From a virus, in the IMG/VR virus record IMGVR_UViG_3300043543_000666, positions 1 to 24,451 of that record: a stretch of 24,451 nt of DNA; one strand, written 5' to 3'. The notes under the pieces are model-generated. The model saw only the letters and a list, made by a program, of their open reading frames with translations. It did no database searches and was not told the DNA's origin. The position numbers and the translations under genes are program-made. This document shows, in pieces, positions 7,134-24,451 of this stretch; the first letter of the stretch is position 1; every line of letters starts with the position of its first letter.

Positions 7134-7697
7134 TTAATTAAAATCCGTTTCGTCAAAATCTGTTTCGTCAAAATCAACGCCAAAAATAATAGGAATATCG
7201 ATGTCGTCAGGAAATATTGTATAGTCAAAAAAATCGGATTGATAGTTTCTAATCAAATCAGGAGCATAAACGTAGTAGATGTTGTAGCTTTCAAGCCCTG
7301 CATCAACGGCAAAGAAGTGTTGTTTGTCGCCTGCTATTTCTAAGTAGTATTTGGAAAAGTTGTAACTTGTATCAAAATAAGAAATAGGATAAAACGGACT
7401 TAGATAAAGCGCTTGTGCGTAAGGTGGTGCAACAGCAGAATATCGGTCTTTCATTTTTGGATATATTGACCGCAATACTCTTGATATTTCAAAAGTGGCT
7501 ATGTGGTTTCCTCCTGCATCAACAAAAAAACTACTTTTAAGCACGCAAAAAAGGTTATCGTTTTGGTCGTATATTACAAGCGTTGCTGTTTTGTCCGTAT
7601 CGCTTGGTAGCTTTTGAGCTATTGCAGTAATTGGATTGACAAGTGATAGTCCCGTCGGTGCAATCAGTTTAGGTTTGACTGAAAATTGTATAGCCAT
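7134..7697 (-). CDS. Tail-region structural protein with acidic repeat C-terminus, 187 aa
   Basis: Beta-rich protein with no recognised domain; it starts MAIQFSVKPKLIAPTGLSLV. The middle section (ATLVIYDQNDNLFCVLKSSF, HIATFEISRVLRSIYP) looks like a small beta-sandwich of the kind in Bacteroidota tail proteins. The C-terminus is a short acidic tandem, DFDETDFDETDFN, encoded by a 15-bp DNA repeat at about 7140-7175. The start overlaps the preceding neck gene by 29 bp. It probably belongs to the tail-tip group with its downstream neighbours. Confidence 0.5.
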   Translation of the reverse strand: MAIQFSVKPKLIAPTGLSLVNPITAIAQKLPSDTDKTATLVIYDQNDNLFCVLKSSFFVDAGGNHIATFEISRVLRSIYPKMKDRYSAVAPPYAQALYLSPFYPISYFDTSYNFSKYYLEIAGDKQHFFAVDAGLESYNIYYVYAPDLIRNYQSDFFDYTIFPDDIDIPIIFGVDFDETDFDETDFN

Positions 7698-10984: not shown

Positions 10985-11233
10985 ATGGACGCAACAACAA
11001 AACGCAGGAAAGCCACTCCCGAAGAGAAAGAATCGTATTTGGAACGAATAAAAAAGTTAAGAACTGCAATAGGCAATTACAAAAGAAAAAAAAGTGGAAA
11101 TTTTCTCAAACAAGTGGAAATTCATCTCGGACGTGAGCTGACTAAGAAGGAACGGCAAGATTGCTACAACGTAATAAACGGACATTCTTGCAACTACGAA
11201 CTCCTTGCACTACTTGAAAAAACATTTTTATGA
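10985..11233 (+). CDS. Small basic protein, candidate early regulator, 82 aa
   Basis: First gene of early operon 1. The N-terminal half is very basic (MDATTKRRKATPEEKES, NYKRKKSGNF). The C-terminal part, LGRELTKKERQDCYNVINGH then NYELLALLEKTF, resembles the helix-turn-helix tail of small Bacteroidota phage regulators, in which an 'I.G...n..il..L' segment closes the domain. A DNA-binding or autoregulatory role fits its place directly after operator-promoter P1, but no HTH is certain. Its stop overlaps the next start as ATGA. Confidence 0.5.
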   Translation: MDATTKRRKATPEEKESYLERIKKLRTAIGNYKRKKSGNFLKQVEIHLGRELTKKERQDCYNVINGHSCNYELLALLEKTFL

Positions 11234-11619
11234 GTAAGCACCAAAAAGTTGCTTTCTACGAGTTTGTAGAACGCCTGACACGGAGCAGTATGTACGAACT
11301 CGTACAGCGTAAGGAATTGCTTTTGCGTGAAGCGGAACAGATAGACCTACTCTCGCTCCCCGAACAAGATGCAGATGAATTGTACGAAGAGATACGAAAC
11401 CTTCGCAGTGAAGTAAATATCCTGCGTGGATACATCGGACTTGTTGAGCAACTTGCTACTGCGTACTTAGAGGCTTTGGACGAAGCACAAACCTTTGACC
11501 TTGTCAAACACACCGAACTTGAAGTAGCCTATGCGGAGTGGAGCAAATTAGAAAGAGCCGTACAAACATACAGAAAATTAAAAGCCATTGAAGAACAATT
11601 AAAAACTTATGAGCATTGA
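11230..11619 (+). CDS. Coiled-coil early protein of unknown function, 129 aa
   Basis: Almost wholly helical and Glu/Leu-rich (YELVQRKELLLREAEQIDLL, ELYEEIRNLRSEVNILRGYI, KLERAVQTYRKLKAIEEQLK), so probably a coiled-coil oligomer. No catalytic motif is visible. It lies between the candidate regulator (ATGA overlap) and the helicase, so a replication-accessory role such as a helicase loader is possible but unsupported. Its last 9 codons fall in a 28-bp tandem duplication that also carries the helicase start. Confidence 0.55.
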   Translation: MSKHQKVAFYEFVERLTRSSMYELVQRKELLLREAEQIDLLSLPEQDADELYEEIRNLRSEVNILRGYIGLVEQLATAYLEALDEAQTFDLVKHTELEVAYAEWSKLERAVQTYRKLKAIEEQLKTYEH

Positions 11620-11649
11620 AAAACAATTAAAAACTTATGAGCATTGAAA
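11594..11649 (+). repeat. Perfect 28-bp tandem duplication across a gene junction
   Basis: Unit 1 is 11594-11621 and unit 2 is 11622-11649, identical over 28 bp. Each holds the end of the 129-residue gene (...QLKTYEH stop) and the helicase start (MSIEK). Copy 1 keeps the stop in use; copy 2 keeps the start in use. The ATG in copy 1 (11609) reads only 12 codons, MSIEKQLKTYEH, to a stop. Confidence 0.95.
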
Positions 11650-13034
11650 AACTACTCAAACGAGTTCGTACCGATAAATCCGAGCAGGCAGAAAAGGAAC
11701 AAGCAGGCTTAGAACGCAGTAAAAGAGAACAGAAAATAGAGCAGATACGCAAACAACTCTCCGATTATATTCGTGTCGGTACCGTATATTTCAAGCGTGT
11801 AATGCGAACCGATAGGTTTGGATTGAAATATGAAACCTTAGAACGTTGGAGAATAGAAACTTTGCAGGAAGATTTCAAACAAGCCATACACGAACTTAAT
11901 GTTTCTTTGCCTCGCAGGCAGGCAAGATACAGCGTTTCGGACTTCATAAACAAGTACGAAACTTTTTGCAACGTGCCTGACAACACGAATTATAGCCGTG
12001 TAATAGACAACTGCTACAACCTGTACAGTCCGATAATACACGAAACCGCCTGTTGGCAATCCCCCGAAGACACAAAACATATTGAGCAGTTTCTTGTGCA
12101 TATTTTTGGCGAGCAGATAGACGTAGCCCTTGACTACTTGACAATACTACTATTGTATCCAAAACAGATACTACCGATATTATGCCTTGTGTCGCAGGAG
12201 AACAATACAGGCAAAACAACGTTCTTGAACTTTCTGAAGGCAATATTTCAGAACAATGCAGTAGTGCTTAATTCTGACGATTTTCAGGACAGCTTCAATT
12301 CGCACTATGCAAGCAAGTTACTCGTAATGATTGATGAGAACTTCATAGAGGTTGAGAAAAGAAAAGAAAAGGAACGTATTAAACAACTCGGCACGGCTTC
12401 TAAGATTATGTTGCATATGAAAGGAATTGACCGAAAGGAAATAGACTACTACGGCAAGCTAATAATGACTTCAAATTACGAAGAAAACTTCATCAGAATA
12501 GACGCCGAGGACATACGTTTTTGGGTTGTCAAAGTTTCTGCCATGCCACAGCGAGACCCTGATATACTTAGCAAGATGATTGCGGAAATTCCTGCATTCT
12601 TAGACTTTTTGCGTAACAAGCGAGCAATTAAGTATCCCAAAACCGAGAGGCATTGGTTTAGCAACGACCTGCTTGATACGCAGGCAAGAAAAAGAGTGAT
12701 AGAAAGTACCAAACCTATGCACGAAGAGATACTTGACAGCTTTTTTCAGGATTATTTTGACCAAACGGAACTGCAAGAAACTACTATGAGCGTACAAGAC
12801 ATTCTGAACGAAAATCAGCGATACAGCCATATAAAGTATTTGAACCACAAAAACGTAAAGGAATATCTACAACGAAACAAATACGAATACACAAGAAACG
12901 TAGTGCGATACACTTACATAAGCATAGCAAGTGGGACGCAAACAAGTGTATCCAAAGTAGGCAGAGTGTATCGGATTAGGAAACGAGACGAGCAAGACCC
13001 CTACATCAAACAAGACGAACCATTACCTTTCTGA
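11637..13034 (+). CDS. SF3-type replicative helicase (D5/DUF5906-like)
   Basis: 465 residues. Predicted hexameric helicase for phage replication. Walker A ENNTGKTT at 188-195, Walker B LLVMIDEN at 228-235, and the SF3 motif C region KLIMTSNYE at 274-282 with its sensor Asn, followed by RFWVVKV at 294-300. The helical segment before Walker A (LDYLTILLLYPKQILPIL) is typical of primase-helicase C-terminal domains. The 140-residue N-terminus shows no primase catalytic motif. The C-terminus (about 380-465) is basic and could be a winged-helix DNA-binding domain. It ends 34 bp before an intrinsic terminator and next to the likely origin region. Confidence 0.85.
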   Translation: MSIEKLLKRVRTDKSEQAEKEQAGLERSKREQKIEQIRKQLSDYIRVGTVYFKRVMRTDRFGLKYETLERWRIETLQEDFKQAIHELNVSLPRRQARYSVSDFINKYETFCNVPDNTNYSRVIDNCYNLYSPIIHETACWQSPEDTKHIEQFLVHIFGEQIDVALDYLTILLLYPKQILPILCLVSQENNTGKTTFLNFLKAIFQNNAVVLNSDDFQDSFNSHYASKLLVMIDENFIEVEKRKEKERIKQLGTASKIMLHMKGIDRKEIDYYGKLIMTSNYEENFIRIDAEDIRFWVVKVSAMPQRDPDILSKMIAEIPAFLDFLRNKRAIKYPKTERHWFSNDLLDTQARKRVIESTKPMHEEILDSFFQDYFDQTELQETTMSVQDILNENQRYSHIKYLNHKNVKEYLQRNKYEYTRNVVRYTYISIASGTQTSVSKVGRVYRIRKRDEQDPYIKQDEPLPF

Positions 13035-13068
13035 ACTGAACGAACCGTTCGGCGAAATCGGAACAATT

Positions 13069-13110
13069 AGAGTGGGCGTAACAAAGTGTTTGTTACAACC
13101 ACTCTTTTTT
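13069..13110 (+). terminator. Intrinsic terminator after the helicase operon
   Basis: AGAGTGG (13069-13075) pairs with CCACTCT (13099-13105), and GTAACAAA (13078-13085) with TTTGTTAC (13089-13096). The stem is 7+8 bp with a 2x2 internal loop and a 3-nt loop, followed by a run of six T at 13105-13110. Confidence 0.85.
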
Positions 13111-13174
13111 GAGTTTGTAAGTTATTGATTGTCAGCCTTGTAACAAATGTAGCAAAGTTACGAAAAAAAAATAC

Positions 13175-13246
13175 ATCTTTCTCCCCCGTATTTTTTCTCC
13201 CCGATTTTCTTTCTCCCCCCCATTTCCCTTTTTTTTATTTTTTTTT
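13175..13246 (+). other. Polypyrimidine tract with four C-runs (G-quadruplex potential on the minus strand)
   Basis: About 70 bp almost purely C/T on the plus strand, with repeated TTTCTCCCC-like blocks. C-runs lie at 13183-13187, 13199-13202, 13215-13221 and 13226-13228, so the minus strand has four G-runs of 3 to 7 with loops of 11, 12 and 4 nt. The composition is unlike anything else in the window. Confidence 0.6.
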
Positions 13247-13345
13247 GTAACATTGTAACAGTAAAGAATATAAATATAAGAAAATTAGCGACTTATGCAT
13301 CAAAAAACCACGTTACAAAATGGTAACAATGCTGTTACATTACAC

Positions 13346-13541
13346 AAAAAAACGGCATTCGTAACTGCCGTTTTTTGCATAAGTCAAAGAAAATCAGTGT
13401 TTTAAAATACGCTTGCTTTGCCTGAAAGAACAGCATTCGTAACTGCCGTTCTTTCGCATAAGTCAAAGAAAATCAATAATTTAGACTTTACAAAAAACGA
13501 AATTCGTAATCGCCGCTTTTTGTGTAAGTTAAAGAAAATCA
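13346..13541 (+). repeat. Three tandem-like hairpin repeats with a conserved 3' tail
   Basis: Each unit is a stem, an 8-nt loop (TTCGTAAC, TTCGTAAC, TTCGTAAT) and a tail. Tails are GCATAAGTCAAAGAAAATCA at 13377 and 13456, and GTGTAAGTTAAAGAAAATCA at 13522. Stems: unit 1 at 13347-13357/13366-13376 (11 perfect pairs); unit 2 at 13424-13435/13444-13455 (11 of 12); unit 3 at 13491-13502/13511-13522 (8 of 12). Periods are 78 and 67 bp. Stem sequences differ but pairing is kept at several positions. Confidence 0.85.
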
Positions 13542-13645
13542 ATGGTTTAGGAGACTTATCCTGCTCGCAAAATTTGCTTGCTATTACCAAACGTTGCAAA
13601 ATGGTATTTACGAACTTCTTTGTTTTTTTGTTCGGAAAGTTTATA

Positions 13646-13659
13646 GACCTAATTAGGTC
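13646..13659. promoter_or_regulatory. 14-bp perfect palindrome, possible protein-binding site
   Basis: GACCTAATTAGGTC is a perfect dyad in the non-coding region, 56 bp before promoter P2's -33 box. It is too short for a terminator and has no loop. It could be an operator or an origin-protein site. Confidence 0.35.
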
Positions 13660-13700
13660 AATATTGATTATCTATTGTTGCAAAAAAAAATCTAAAAAAA

Positions 13701-13742
13701 AATTACAAAAAAATTTTGTAATTACAAAAAAATTTTGTAATT
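13701..13742. promoter_or_regulatory. Double operator-like palindrome overlapping P2
   Basis: Two overlapping copies of the dyad AATTACAAAA-AAA-TTTTGTAATT (13701-13723 and 13720-13742), centres 19 bp apart, i.e. nearly two helical turns on the same DNA face. The downstream copy overlaps the -7 box exactly as at P1, and the upstream copy covers the -33 box. Confidence 0.6.
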
Positions 13743-13745
13743 TTG
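13715..13745 (+). promoter_or_regulatory. Early promoter P2 (Bacteroidota consensus)
   Basis: -33 TTTG at 13715-13718, a 19-bp spacer, and -7 TAATTTTG at 13738-13745: a full match to TTTG-N19-TAnnTTTG. The first ORF of operon 2 starts 51 bp downstream. Confidence 0.75.
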
Positions 13746-13796
13746 TATCAACAAGAAAACAAAAAAAAGTAAGTATCACCAAAAAACGCTAAAAAA

Positions 13797-14048
13797 ATGA
13801 AAAAGAAAGCAAAAAAAGATTATTGTATTTACGATTGTATTGTAAATACTAAGTTAAAAAAGGAAAAAGGCTTCAGAGTACTTTCTGTGAAGGCGTATTT
13901 AGAAGGCACAAATCCAAATGCCAACTCGCTTTGGGACGTAGAACGTGCTTGTGTTCCAAGCATTAGCAAGCAATTAGGAATAAGAGAATCGCAAATTGAA
14001 AAAACAGAGCTTATTCATTACTCCTTTTGGGGTTGGACTACTATGTAA
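13797..14048 (+). CDS. Hypothetical early protein, 83 aa
   Basis: First gene of early operon 2, directly under promoter P2. Basic N-terminus (MKKKAKKDYCIYDCIVNTKL), then FRVLSVKAYLEGTNPNANSL and QLGIRESQIEKTELIHYSFW. Two closely spaced Cys (10 and 14) are present, but no zinc-finger pair follows. No family recognised; the even, non-repetitive composition and good leader support a real gene. It precedes the recombination genes by 42 bp, so a replication or recombination accessory role is possible. Confidence 0.6.
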   Translation: MKKKAKKDYCIYDCIVNTKLKKEKGFRVLSVKAYLEGTNPNANSLWDVERACVPSISKQLGIRESQIEKTELIHYSFWGWTTM

Positions 14049-14090
14049 TTGCATTTACTTTTTTATTTTATCAACTAAACCTATATCACA

Positions 14091-14501
14091 ATGGAAAACA
14101 CAAATCAAGAAGTACTCGCTGTATCGGTAGAAACAGGCGAGACAAAAAAAACAGGGTTGTTAATCCCCGCAGACTTTGAGTGGGAGAAACTTGAAACGCT
14201 AAAAGCAACTCCCAATGTTGCTCCAAAGTACATTGAGTTCAATGTGCCAGGGCAAAAGATTAGAGGTTTCTATTTGGGAAATTCCAAAGTAGAGAAAAAA
14301 GAAAACGACGAAACGAAAGTAATACCTGTGATTCTTTTGGCAACAGCAGAAGGCGTGTTTATGAACGGTGGTGTATCTTTGGTAGATACGATGACAAAAT
14401 TTTGCCGTGTTGGTGAAGCCGTAGAAATAGAATTTATCGGCTTGAAAAAAGTCAGCAAAGGAAACCTAAAAGAGTATGCCGTTAGACCACTAGTGCTATG
14501 A
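14091..14501 (+). CDS. Candidate ssDNA-binding (OB-like) protein, 136 aa
   Basis: An unstructured N-terminus (about 1-45) is followed by a strand-rich core: PKYIEFNVPGQKIRGFYLG, TKVIPVILLATAEGVFMNG, FCRVGEAVEIEFIGLKKV and LKEYAVRPLVL. Five or more strands with a central helix-like segment (SLVDTMTKF) fit an OB fold. Its stop overlaps the start of a RecE-like exonuclease (ATGA); phage exonucleases are often paired with an ssDNA-binding or annealing protein. The leader AACTAAACC...CACAATG lacks a Shine-Dalgarno. The fold is inferred from pattern and context, not from a recognised signature. Confidence 0.5.
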   Translation: MENTNQEVLAVSVETGETKKTGLLIPADFEWEKLETLKATPNVAPKYIEFNVPGQKIRGFYLGNSKVEKKENDETKVIPVILLATAEGVFMNGGVSLVDTMTKFCRVGEAVEIEFIGLKKVSKGNLKEYAVRPLVL

Positions 14502-15214
14502 ACTTAGATGCTCTTAACCAAATGAAAGTTGCTTCGGAAACGATTTTTGTTTCCGAAGCAATACAAGAAGATGCACACAGCAATTATCGTGCCGAGCGAC
14601 GTGTATCTAACTCTATGCTTGATTACGTTGTGCCGTTAATTCAGGGACTTACTCCAAAAAAGAAATGTTCGCCTGCTTTTTCCTTTGGCACTCTGATACA
14701 TACTGCTTTATTAGAGCCGCATTTGTTCAGTTACGAAAAAGCAGGGAACGACGCAATGCAGATATATCGTTGCGTGCAAGCCTTTCACGATACACCTTTC
14801 TTCGCTGAGTTGCTTGAAACAAGCCTGCGAGAAGTTACGCATTATTGGGATTGGCGAGACGTTCCGTGCAAAGCACGAATCGATATGGTATCAGCTAAAT
14901 ATGGGCTTATTGCCGACATCAAAACGACGAGTACGACGAATAGCAAAGAACTTGCCGAACACGTCAGCAAGTATAACTACGACAGGCAAATGGCTTTCTA
15001 TTGCGATGCTATCGGTATAGATACTGCCTGTATCATTGCTATCAGCAAAAAGACTTGTGAGCCGTTCCTATACACACTGACAGCCGAGCAACTCGCCGAG
15101 GGACGGAAAAAATACGAGTCTGCTCTTAACCTTATTAAGAAAAACGATTTGCTTGAAAAATTATTAGATTTATGTATCGTTATGTACGAGGAGAGCTGTA
15201 CAAGTATAAAATAA
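14498..15214 (+). CDS. RecE/DUF3799-like PD-(D/E)XK exonuclease
   Basis: 238 residues. Predicted double-strand DNA exonuclease for phage recombination or concatemer processing. Family motifs: RRVSNSMLDYVV near 37-48, AFSFGTLIHTALLEP near 66-80 (the conserved His of RecB/RecE nucleases), the catalytic core CKARIDMVSAKYGLIADIKT near 127-147 with Asp133, Asp144 and Lys146, and YNYDRQMAFYCDAIG with the conserved Gln. ATGA overlap with the upstream OB-like gene suggests paired action. Its length matches stand-alone DUF3799 proteins. Confidence 0.85.
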   Translation: MNLDALNQMKVASETIFVSEAIQEDAHSNYRAERRVSNSMLDYVVPLIQGLTPKKKCSPAFSFGTLIHTALLEPHLFSYEKAGNDAMQIYRCVQAFHDTPFFAELLETSLREVTHYWDWRDVPCKARIDMVSAKYGLIADIKTTSTTNSKELAEHVSKYNYDRQMAFYCDAIGIDTACIIAISKKTCEPFLYTLTAEQLAEGRKKYESALNLIKKNDLLEKLLDLCIVMYEESCTSIK

Positions 15215-15229
15215 TTAAAAAACAACAAT

Positions 15230-15364
15230 ATGGAAAAAGATTTATTTGGAAACGAAATCATAAAAGACGTTTTATTAAGAGACAAATTTATAGAACCACC
15301 TTTCAGTGTATTAGATGCGAGAACTCCGAAGTGGCAAAGCAGAAGAAGATTTAACTTTACTTGA
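15230..15364 (+). pseudogene. Truncated N-terminus of a ParB/adenine-methylase-type phage protein, 44 codons
   Basis: Reads MEKDLFGNEIIKDVLLRDKF, then IEPPFSVLDARTPKWQSRRR, and stops at TGA 15362. The 'll.dkFi.PPFSVLD.r...Wq.RkR' block is the conserved opening of phage proteins that normally continue for hundreds of residues as ParB-like or DNA-methylase enzymes. Nothing downstream in any frame restores the rest, so this looks like a decayed or deleted gene whose start signal survives. A functional mini-protein is possible. An intact methyltransferase of another class lies at 17895-18671. Confidence 0.55.
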
Positions 15365-15509
15365 TTGGCGATTATCTATCAAACAAGATACTAACAATAT
15401 TGAAGTTGAAGATAGCGTCTTTAAAATTGGGCAAATTATGATTTGTAATTTGTCGGTAGATATTATTCAAGACAAAGATAAAATCTCAATTAGTGCAGTC
15501 GTTTCGTAG
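15315..15509 (+). CDS. Doubtful small ORF overlapping the truncated gene, 64 aa
   Basis: Starts inside the remnant in another frame (MRELRSGKAEEDLTLLDWRL) and continues past it. The unique part, SVFKIGQIMICNLSVDIIQD then KISISAVVS, has plausible strand-like coding composition and fills the 15365-15509 gap. Its start could instead be the internal Met near 15438. No family recognised. It may be the tail of whatever replaced the missing methylase sequence. Confidence 0.3.
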   Translation: MRELRSGKAEEDLTLLDWRLSIKQDTNNIEVEDSVFKIGQIMICNLSVDIIQDKDKISISAVVS

Positions 15510-15538
15510 CATTTTGGTACAAATTTACTATTCAAACA

Positions 15539-15826
15539 ATGGAACAGACAACAATTTTCTTATCCGTACAATTTGATGCTTGCGTGGAATCACACGAGCA
15601 GTATCCTTATTACGAATATTGCACCGAGTATGGAAAAGTGCTATACGAAGAAGAAGAAAAAGATATTACAGGTCTTGTAAAGCAATATCCTGATGTAGAG
15701 TTTGCAATTTGGGAAGAACTACAAAGGGAATATCCGAGAACAGGTAGAAACCTTCATACAGACTTTTGGTTAGATGTACCTGTTGCGTTTGTCAAAGCTA
15801 TCGAAGCAGACTATAAAGCACAGTAG
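15539..15826 (+). CDS. Hypothetical acidic protein, 95 aa
   Basis: Strongly acidic (EEEEKD at 36-41), aromatic-rich (HEQYPYYEYCTEYGKVLYEE) and soluble. The leader TTCAAACAATG resembles other starts in this phage. Small acidic early proteins of phages often inhibit host factors or mimic DNA, but nothing specific is visible. Its stop codon lies within the left arm of a strong RNA hairpin (15822-15858). Confidence 0.55.
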   Translation: MEQTTIFLSVQFDACVESHEQYPYYEYCTEYGKVLYEEEEKDITGLVKQYPDVEFAIWEELQREYPRTGRNLHTDFWLDVPVAFVKAIEADYKAQ

Positions 15827-15858
15827 CTTGGCTGTGGTTCTTCCATAGCCTTGCTACT
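15822..15858 (+). other. Strong symmetrical RNA hairpin at a gene end, without a T-run
   Basis: AGTAGC pairs with GCTACT (15822-15827/15853-15858), then a symmetrical TT/TT internal loop, then GGCTGTGG with CCATAGCC (8 pairs, one G-U), closing on loop TTCTT. It overlaps the TAG of the 95-residue gene. The sequence after it is AACAAAAAAG, so it is not an intrinsic terminator on either strand. Confidence 0.7.
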
Positions 15859-15919
15859 AACAAAAAAGTATTGCCGAAGGTAATTTTAAACAGACAAAAT
15901 TTAAAAAACTATTACTAAT

Positions 15920-16168
15920 ATGAAATTAGAAGCAGTTGCTATCAAGCGTTGCACGGAGATTTACGTGGCTTACGCTGAAAAATACGGCAAATTGCCTAAG
16001 ACGCTAAAAGAAAGTTTGAACGATTTTAGCGAGTTGTATGGCGAGGCTGTACAGAACCGCACCTCGTATGAGGTGGGTGTGTTTTTTGATATGTACCTAA
16101 CAGATTACTTGCCGTTTTCTAAAAGTAAAAGAAAAGGAAAAACAGAAACAGATAAACCTATAAATTAG
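15920..16168 (+). CDS. Hypothetical helical protein, 82 aa
   Basis: Starts MKLEAVAIKRCTEIYVAYAE. Mostly helical, with a basic, low-complexity C-terminus (SKSKRKGKTETDKP). No membrane segment or known motif. It lies 62 bp after the 15822 hairpin and 6 bp before the next ORF, so it is probably co-transcribed with both neighbours. No function can be assigned. Confidence 0.5.
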   Translation: MKLEAVAIKRCTEIYVAYAEKYGKLPKTLKESLNDFSELYGEAVQNRTSYEVGVFFDMYLTDYLPFSKSKRKGKTETDKPIN

Positions 16169-16174
16169 AATGAT

Positions 16175-16459
16175 ATGGAATACAGCAAAGAAATAAAGAA
16201 AAAAGCTATTAGTTTCGCTAATGCCGTTGCGACGGGCAACATTACTTTATCCCTGCAAGTAAAAGCAAAATATATGAGTAGAAACTCCGAAAATCACTTC
16301 ATACTTTTGAATTTTTTAGCCGATTTTCAGAAGGAAATAAACTTGTCTAAGAGATTTGAGAACTGGTTACGACAAAAAGGAATAGAACAAAATAATCTTT
16401 TTGGCGTGGAACAAACTAATCTTTTTGGCGATGAACAAAGAAACCGAGAAAAGATATGA
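16175..16459 (+). CDS. Small protein with two C-terminal QxxLF (clamp-binding-like) repeats, 94 aa
   Basis: Residues 1-68 are helical and basic (EYSKEIKKKAISFANAVATG ... RFENWLRQKG). The C-terminus holds a tandem of 8 residues: EQNNLFGV, EQTNLFGD, then EQ. Each unit contains QxxLF (Gln72-Leu75-Phe76 and Gln80-Leu83-Phe84), the pattern by which bacterial proteins bind the DNA polymerase sliding clamp. The underlying DNA repeat has a 24-bp period (16385, 16409, partial at 16433). The phage encodes no polymerase, so recruiting the host replisome would make sense. Binding is inferred. Its stop overlaps the next start as ATGA. Confidence 0.6.
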   Translation: MEYSKEIKKKAISFANAVATGNITLSLQVKAKYMSRNSENHFILLNFLADFQKEINLSKRFENWLRQKGIEQNNLFGVEQTNLFGDEQRNREKI

Positions 16460-16800
16460 AAGTAGAAAAGACAGAAAAAGCTATGATTTTAGTCTATTGC
16501 GTTGCTTTAAGTCAATTGCTGATTTATGCTATTGACAAAGCAGAAGAGAATAGATTGTTTCGCTACGATGTAAAACAAATAGCTAACAGGTTCAGAACCA
16601 TTTTAGAAAAAAAAATACACGAGCTATACGGTTTTCATACGGATAACAAAATAACGGAAGAAGCAGAATTAGAGTTTTACGATTTCGTAAATCTTTTAGA
16701 AATGGAGTTGCAACTAATTATGGAGATGAACAACGAAGAACGAAAAGAACTGATAACATTGTTAGATAAAGTGAAAAAACGTCTTGATTATGAAAAGTAA
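16456..16800 (+). CDS. Hypothetical helical protein, 114 aa
   Basis: Starts by ATGA overlap with the QxxLF gene, so the two are probably made together. Almost all helix (AMILVYCVALSQLLIYAIDK, IANRFRTILEKKIHELYGF, ELEFYDFVNLLEMELQLIME). The hydrophobic stretch at 10-27 is broken by polar residues and is more likely a buried helix than a membrane anchor. No motif recognised. Confidence 0.5.
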   Translation: MKVEKTEKAMILVYCVALSQLLIYAIDKAEENRLFRYDVKQIANRFRTILEKKIHELYGFHTDNKITEEAELEFYDFVNLLEMELQLIMEMNNEERKELITLLDKVKKRLDYEK

Positions 16801-24194: not shown

Positions 24195-24451
24195 CTACAA
24201 TATTTTTTTGATTTTTGGAACAAATTTCTTTTCGGTGCTTTGTGCTGTTTTTCTCACGTCTTTGGCAACAGAACTTTCACCAAAAGCGTTTTTCATCAGC
24301 ACCGCCCAATTTTCTTGTTGTGCTTCAAGTGCTTTAACTTTCTCGGCAAGCACTGCCACAAGTGCGGTAAGGTCTTCGGTTGTTTGTGCCTGCTCCGCTA
24401 CGGCAGGTCGTATCTCTGCGATAATGCCGTCTTTTGTTACGATAATCGTGC
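24195..24451 (-). CDS. Protease/scaffold fusion, C-terminal part (5' end lies across the circular join)
   Basis: This is the rest of the gene that begins at 878. The reading frame entering at 24451 is the same as the one leaving at position 1, and the 136-bp overlap makes the join unambiguous. It encodes the DGTIIV strand motif, a probable coiled coil (TTEDLTALVAVLAEKVKALE) and a basic tail ending KKIL, with TAG at 24197-24195. A coiled coil and basic C-terminus fit a scaffolding protein that contacts the capsid protein. The stop lies 3 bp before the capsid gene start at 24191. Confidence 0.8.
   Translation of the reverse strand, partial: TIIVTKDGIIAEIRPAVAEQAQTTEDLTALVAVLAEKVKALEAQQENWAVLMKNAFGESSVAKDVRKTAQSTEKKFVPKIKKIL
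24316..24451. repeat. Terminal 136-bp overlap with positions 1-136 (circular join)
   Basis: Bases 24316-24451 match 1-136 except at 24329-24330 (GT against TC at 14-15). Collapsing the overlap gives a 24,315-bp circle and a continuous protease/scaffold ORF of 999 bp. It is most simply an assembly overlap of a circular or circularly permuted genome. Confidence 0.9.

Follow-up and report, generated by a model that had tools for sequence, protein, structure and literature searches.

To our knowledge, few phage proteins target the bacterial sliding clamp. The DnaN-targeting proteins of staphylococcal phages, Twort gp168 and G1 gp240, shut off host replication (PMC3594737), and Twort gp168 reportedly sits in the clamp's DNA channel and prevents clamp loading (PMC11139829). 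The Caulobacter toxin SocB occupies the pocket of DnaN by means of a clamp-binding motif (PMC9690074). The beta-clamp-binding motif has the form Q-phi-x-[L/M]-[F/L] and is often located in disordered tails (PMC11139829). Position 2 is usually aliphatic, yet tolerant: Leu is the best residue here, and the Pol III epsilon motif QTSMAF, with Thr at this position, binds at about 210 µM (PMC11139829). Asn at position 3 is known from the Pol V motif QLNLF (PMC11139829). The residues that line the pocket have been described and include Val344 in subsite II, where position 2 binds (PMC11139829). The motif of E. coli DnaE, presented as the peptide IGQADMFGV, binds with a KD of 2.7 to at least 15 µM (PMC11139829).

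Here we describe a phage protein of 94 residues whose C-terminal tail carries two words resembling this motif. Like Twort gp168 and G1 gp240 it would be a phage protein aimed at the host sliding clamp, although in this case the target is predicted. It would differ from gp168, which is reported to use the DNA channel, and has no detectable homology to either staphylococcal protein; a tblastn search of 50,697 phage records returned no match at E ≤ 1. With SocB it shares a motif predicted to suit the DnaN pocket, but SocB is a component of a bacterial toxin–antitoxin system, and no relationship between the two proteins was found in family searches. The internal motif of DnaE resembles the phage tail in having Gln at position 1 (E. 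coli QADMFGV), Leu or Met followed by Phe at positions 4–5, Gly after the Phe and Val or Asp after the Gly, as well as in the polar residues at position 2 that are tolerated in Bacteroidota DnaE. In DnaE, however, the motif is present in a single copy within a loop of a large polymerase, whereas the phage has two copies, eight residues apart, in the C-terminal tail of a small protein, with Asn at position 3.

The phage genome, the 94-residue protein and its repeat

The window, the whole stretch of 24,451 bases that was analysed, carries a terminal direct repeat of 136 nt (1–136 and 24316–24451, 99% identical) and, given this repeat, most likely represents a whole circular phage genome. The gene for a Clp-type head protease crosses the join. 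The late genes—terminase, portal, Clp-type protease and tail genes—lie on the minus strand. The plus strand carries the early block (10985–16800), in which several small orphans accompany the genes for a helicase and an exonuclease VIII-like protein. The helicase (11637–13034, plus strand) is of the DUF5906/P4 primase C-terminal type (PF19263, 67.7 bits; phrog_1156; TIGR01613 weakly) and is the phage's own replication protein. The exonuclease VIII-like protein (14498–15214, plus strand) belongs to the DUF3799/PDDEXK type (phrog_412, E 2.4e-35; PF12684, 64 bits). No polymerase was recognised among the scanned ORFs, a set which did not take in all of the remaining large ORFs of the late structural operon. 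The product at 14091 had been put forward as a candidate SSB from the sequence alone; it matches nothing in Pfam or NCBIfam, its structure model is uninterpretable (pLDDT 33), and that assignment is not supported. From the similarity of the terminase and tail genes, the host probably lies within the Bacteroidota.

The gene for the 94-residue protein (16175–16459, plus strand) is found near the end of the early block, which it shares with genes for replication and recombination. Its coding status is well supported: the codon score is 0.32 in its own frame, compared to 0.09 and 0.12 for the remaining two forward frames, and at 16456 the sequence ATGA combines its stop with the start codon of the following gene. 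The latter is a small orphan ORF (16456–16800, plus strand), called from this overlap and its codon score, with no family. A single-sequence AlphaFold2 model of the 94-residue protein (mean pLDDT 62) has helices at residues 3–19, 22–32 and 39–67, so that the N-terminal part, residues 3–67, is predicted to be helical. The tail is modelled with low confidence, with pLDDT below 50 at residues 75–85, and is probably disordered. The last 31 residues read WLRQKGIEQNNLFGVEQTNLFGDEQRNREKI; about 10 of them follow the second motif, and the motifs are therefore not at the very C-terminal end. Placement in a tail or exposed loop is what is expected of a clamp motif, although this agreement is weak, coming as it does from a single-sequence model.

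Relatives of the protein were sought widely. None was found in viral contigs, in plasmid records or at loci with related terminases, nor in 393 Bacteroidales and 396 Flavobacteriales genomes. The best matches in these 789 genomes reached 24 bits, were embedded in large frames of unrelated sequence or ran through stop codons, and were rejected as being at chance level for this number of genomes. Searches of family, solved-structure and fold libraries returned nothing, and structure searches with the AlphaFold2 model returned nothing reliable. Searches that used the exonuclease and the helicase to look for this early block elsewhere also brought up no close relative. The closest phage, L002, has a terminase 90% identical to that of our phage; its sequence ends before the region of 16175–16459 and its early block is different, a comparison which shows that early modules are exchanged between phages. 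The early block of L002 (1–1150) includes, by eye, an ORF for a VRR-NUC-like nuclease.

The two motifs are encoded by a tandem duplication with a 24-bp unit in 2.3 copies (16385–16439, plus strand; Tandem Repeats Finder score 89). The full copies occupy 16385–16408 and 16409–16432 and are followed by a partial third, GAACAAA (7 bp, 16433–16439). Together they encode EQNNLFGV-EQTNLFGD. The first motif-like hexamer, QNNLFG (residues 72–77, in the context IEQNNLFGV), is encoded by 16388–16405 and the second, QTNLFG (residues 80–85, in the context VEQTNLFGD), by 16412–16429, both on the plus strand. The ORF reading, the repeat coordinates and the coding frame thus confirm the tandem QxxLF repeats noticed in the sequence-only reading, in which the repeat was also taken as a sign that the motif had been multiplied under selection. 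The second QxxLF copy derives from one duplication. The two 24-bp copies are identical at 21 of 24 bases, and the three differences are all non-synonymous, changing Asn to Thr at motif position 2 and Val to Asp after the Gly. All three miss the Gln, Leu and Phe codons, as would happen by chance with a probability of about (15/24)^3 = 0.24. With no synonymous difference and a chance of this size, the repeat holds no usable sign of selection; three differences are too few. Furthermore, other short tandem duplications occur at or near the 3′ ends of genes in the same phage (7140–7175 and 11586–11652), so that the duplication at 16385–16439 is, as such, not special; the claim of selection is not supported. 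The first of these, a 15-bp tandem repeat at 7140–7175, gives rise to the C-terminal tail DFDETDFDETDFN, which is also found in L002 and has therefore been maintained.

Rarity of the motif and its likeness to the DnaE loop

The bare pentamer QxxLF is weak evidence for clamp binding. Sequences shuffled from the composition of the 94-residue protein contain at least one QxxLF in 4.2% of cases and at least two in 0.05%. In the phage proteome (7,643 residues) 1.36 are expected; the observed number is four, of which the 94-residue protein supplies two, and some protein with two QxxLF appears in 5% of shuffled proteomes. Related phages and prophage regions (1,806 ORFs) show no enrichment, with 36 seen compared to 52 expected from shuffles. 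Since about 1.4 are expected by chance and the second copy arose by duplication, the bare QxxLF was set aside as evidence. A perfect consensus clamp word, QLDLF, was seen elsewhere at residue 154 of a phage TET/JBP-like dioxygenase (PF12851; L052 460–1254 and L054 877–1671), where it could be due to chance or be a true clamp contact of a DNA-modifying enzyme.

The extended form Q.NLFG is much rarer than the bare QxxLF. In the ORFs of related phages, which total 378,680 residues, Q.[SDN]LFG does not occur, against 0.6 expected. The tandem pattern Q..LFG-x2-Q..LFG has 15 matches in viral contigs, all in short ORFs resembling chance frames; it is absent from 395 genomes, and no other phage ORF shows it.

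For comparison with the host, DnaE was taken from 12 Bacteroidota-type genomes that were picked for carrying related terminases and stand in for the phage's host. In 11 of the 12 the loop aligned with E. coli QADMFGV (residue 920) reads xxSLFG, in the forms MHSLFG, QVSLFG, QQSLFG, VNSLFG, KVSLFG or MNSLFG (with the next residue, for example, QVSLFGD, QQSLFGG and VNSLFGG). The twelfth DnaE is divergent and shorter and reads PSLF. Gly follows the Phe in every one of the 11 loops, as it does in E. coli. Gln is often replaced in this loop among the sampled genomes (L122–L132, L173–L182). Of these genomes, 11 have a MutS with QLSFF, QMSFF, QLSFY or QLSMF, and QLxLxF-type motifs stand at the end of several DinB proteins.

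When a matrix built from the 11 DnaE loops is applied to the 7,604 hexamers of the window, QNNLFG ranks first and QTNLFG second, although the choice to include Gly as a column was made with the phage motif already known, which is a weakness of this ranking. Among 369,726 hexamers of related phages, one reaches the score of QNNLFG and 15 reach that of QTNLFG. With a five-column matrix to which the MutS and DinB motifs were added and from which Gly was dropped, the phage copies rank third and eighteenth in the window. The likeness is therefore specifically to the DnaE loop, including its Gly.

Both phage copies carry Gln at position 1 (Q72 and Q80) and LF at positions 4 and 5, as the canonical motif prescribes. 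At position 2 they have Asn and Thr, which depart from the strict aliphatic form. Judging by the Thr-bearing epsilon motif, with its affinity of about 210 µM, both residues would be unfavourable in E. coli. Among the sampled Bacteroidota, position 2 is polar (Asn, Gln or His) in seven of the 11 DnaE loops, and the DnaN residue aligned with E. coli Val344 is Asn, Ser or Thr in all 10 sampled DnaN proteins. The residues aligned with R152, H175, L177, P242, V247, M362 and P363 are invariant in the same 10; this pocket comparison is an alignment at 24–30% identity. A polar residue at position 2 is thus less of an objection than it would be in E. coli, and the pattern would fit a clamp that accepts such residues. 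A phylum-wide co-adaptation of the DnaE loop and the DnaN pocket in Bacteroidota is possible.

Possible roles of the tail and competing explanations

Clamp binding is a reasonable reading of this otherwise unrecognised protein, and it is tentatively proposed here, at close to even chances, that its tail binds the peptide pocket of the host DnaN. The 94-residue protein would then be small and helical, ending in a disordered tail that bears two DnaE-type beta-clamp-binding motifs, and this tail would dock in the protein-binding pocket of DnaN, where the internal loop of DNA polymerase III alpha also docks. The earlier reading of the locus as a clamp hijacker has gained from the match to the Bacteroidota DnaE loop and from the conserved DnaN pocket, while its bivalency, selection and SSB parts are not supported. 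A bivalent clamp-binding protein had been proposed as the link to the host replisome or as its inhibitor. Q72 and Q80, however, are eight residues apart, which is at most about 30 Å when fully stretched and too short, as the two pockets of the beta ring are much farther apart; a single tail is thus unable to occupy the two sites of a ring together. Each motif would probably be a weak site, in which case the duplication would mainly raise the local concentration of hooks without bridging the two pockets, and two weak adjacent sites may exert their effect through rebinding or through dimerisation of the protein.

The strongest rival, which is quite possible but falls somewhat below even, is chance: the tail would be a disordered extension with no relation to clamp motifs, a QxxLF-like word would have come up in it and been copied a single time through replication slippage, and the tail would not bind the clamp. 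About 1.4 such words are expected in the proteome, one event is multiplied by duplication, other short tandem duplications sit at gene ends of the same phage and related phages show no excess of QxxLF; position 2 is also not aliphatic, and the searches for relatives of the protein yielded none that could show conservation of the motif. Chance accounts less readily for the fit of QNNLFG to the DnaE loops, better than that of any other hexamer of the phage and of all but one of the 369,726 in related phages, and for the location of the hexamers in a probably disordered tail encoded within an early block with replication genes.

If clamp binding is accepted, the tail may tether phage DNA-metabolism proteins to the clamp-bound host replisome, or modulate it, rather than shut it off. 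A phage that encodes a helicase and an exonuclease, yet no recognised polymerase, would need the host Pol III, which makes this role more sensible than clamp blocking; a tether is more likely than an inhibitor. The fuller proposal, that a polymerase-less phage uses a small dedicated adaptor with a tandem DnaE-loop-mimic tail to hold its helicase and exonuclease machinery on the host sliding clamp, is doubtful. Small orphan early phage genes often encode takeover proteins, and the alternative that the tail competes with Pol III, MutS and DinB for the clamp pocket, slowing host replication or repair, draws on this and on the motif being that with which DnaE enters the same pocket. It has precedents in the targeting of DnaN by Twort gp168 and G1 gp240 (PMC3594737) and in the inhibition of E. 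coli growth by an overexpressed QLDLF-containing peptide (PMC11139829). Such an inhibitor is nevertheless improbable, since a blocked pocket would harm the replication of a phage with no recognised polymerase, the motif is expected to be weak and gp168 exerts its action in the DNA channel instead of the pocket (PMC11139829).

If the preferred reading of the tail as a ligand of the DnaN pocket is true, the phage protein would offer a simple example of mimicry of a short motif, here the DnaE loop, and a clue to the way in which small polymerase-less phages exploit the host replisome. In addition, the xxSLFG loops, the tolerant position 2 and the polar pocket residue provide a better matrix for finding clamp motifs in Bacteroidota than the E. 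coli consensus.

Other features of the early block

Between the exonuclease gene and the gene for the 94-residue protein lies a short ORF, MEKDLFGNEIIKDVLLRDKFIEPPFSVLDARTPKWQSRR (15230–15509), with a weak ParB-like nuclease match. One stretch of it is 56% identical in a Candidatus Azobacteroides contig (L021). The ORF breaks off early and overlaps an ORF in another frame; it is a truncated gene or a frameshift.

The helicase gene is followed by an AT-rich intergenic stretch of 760 bp (13035–13796), which is a candidate replication origin. It contains three degenerate direct repeats of about 58 bp, at 13347, 13426 and 13492, each of which begins near a hairpin-like core, AACGGCATTCGTAACTGCCGTT, and, at 13701–13738, perfect 19-bp tandem repeats.
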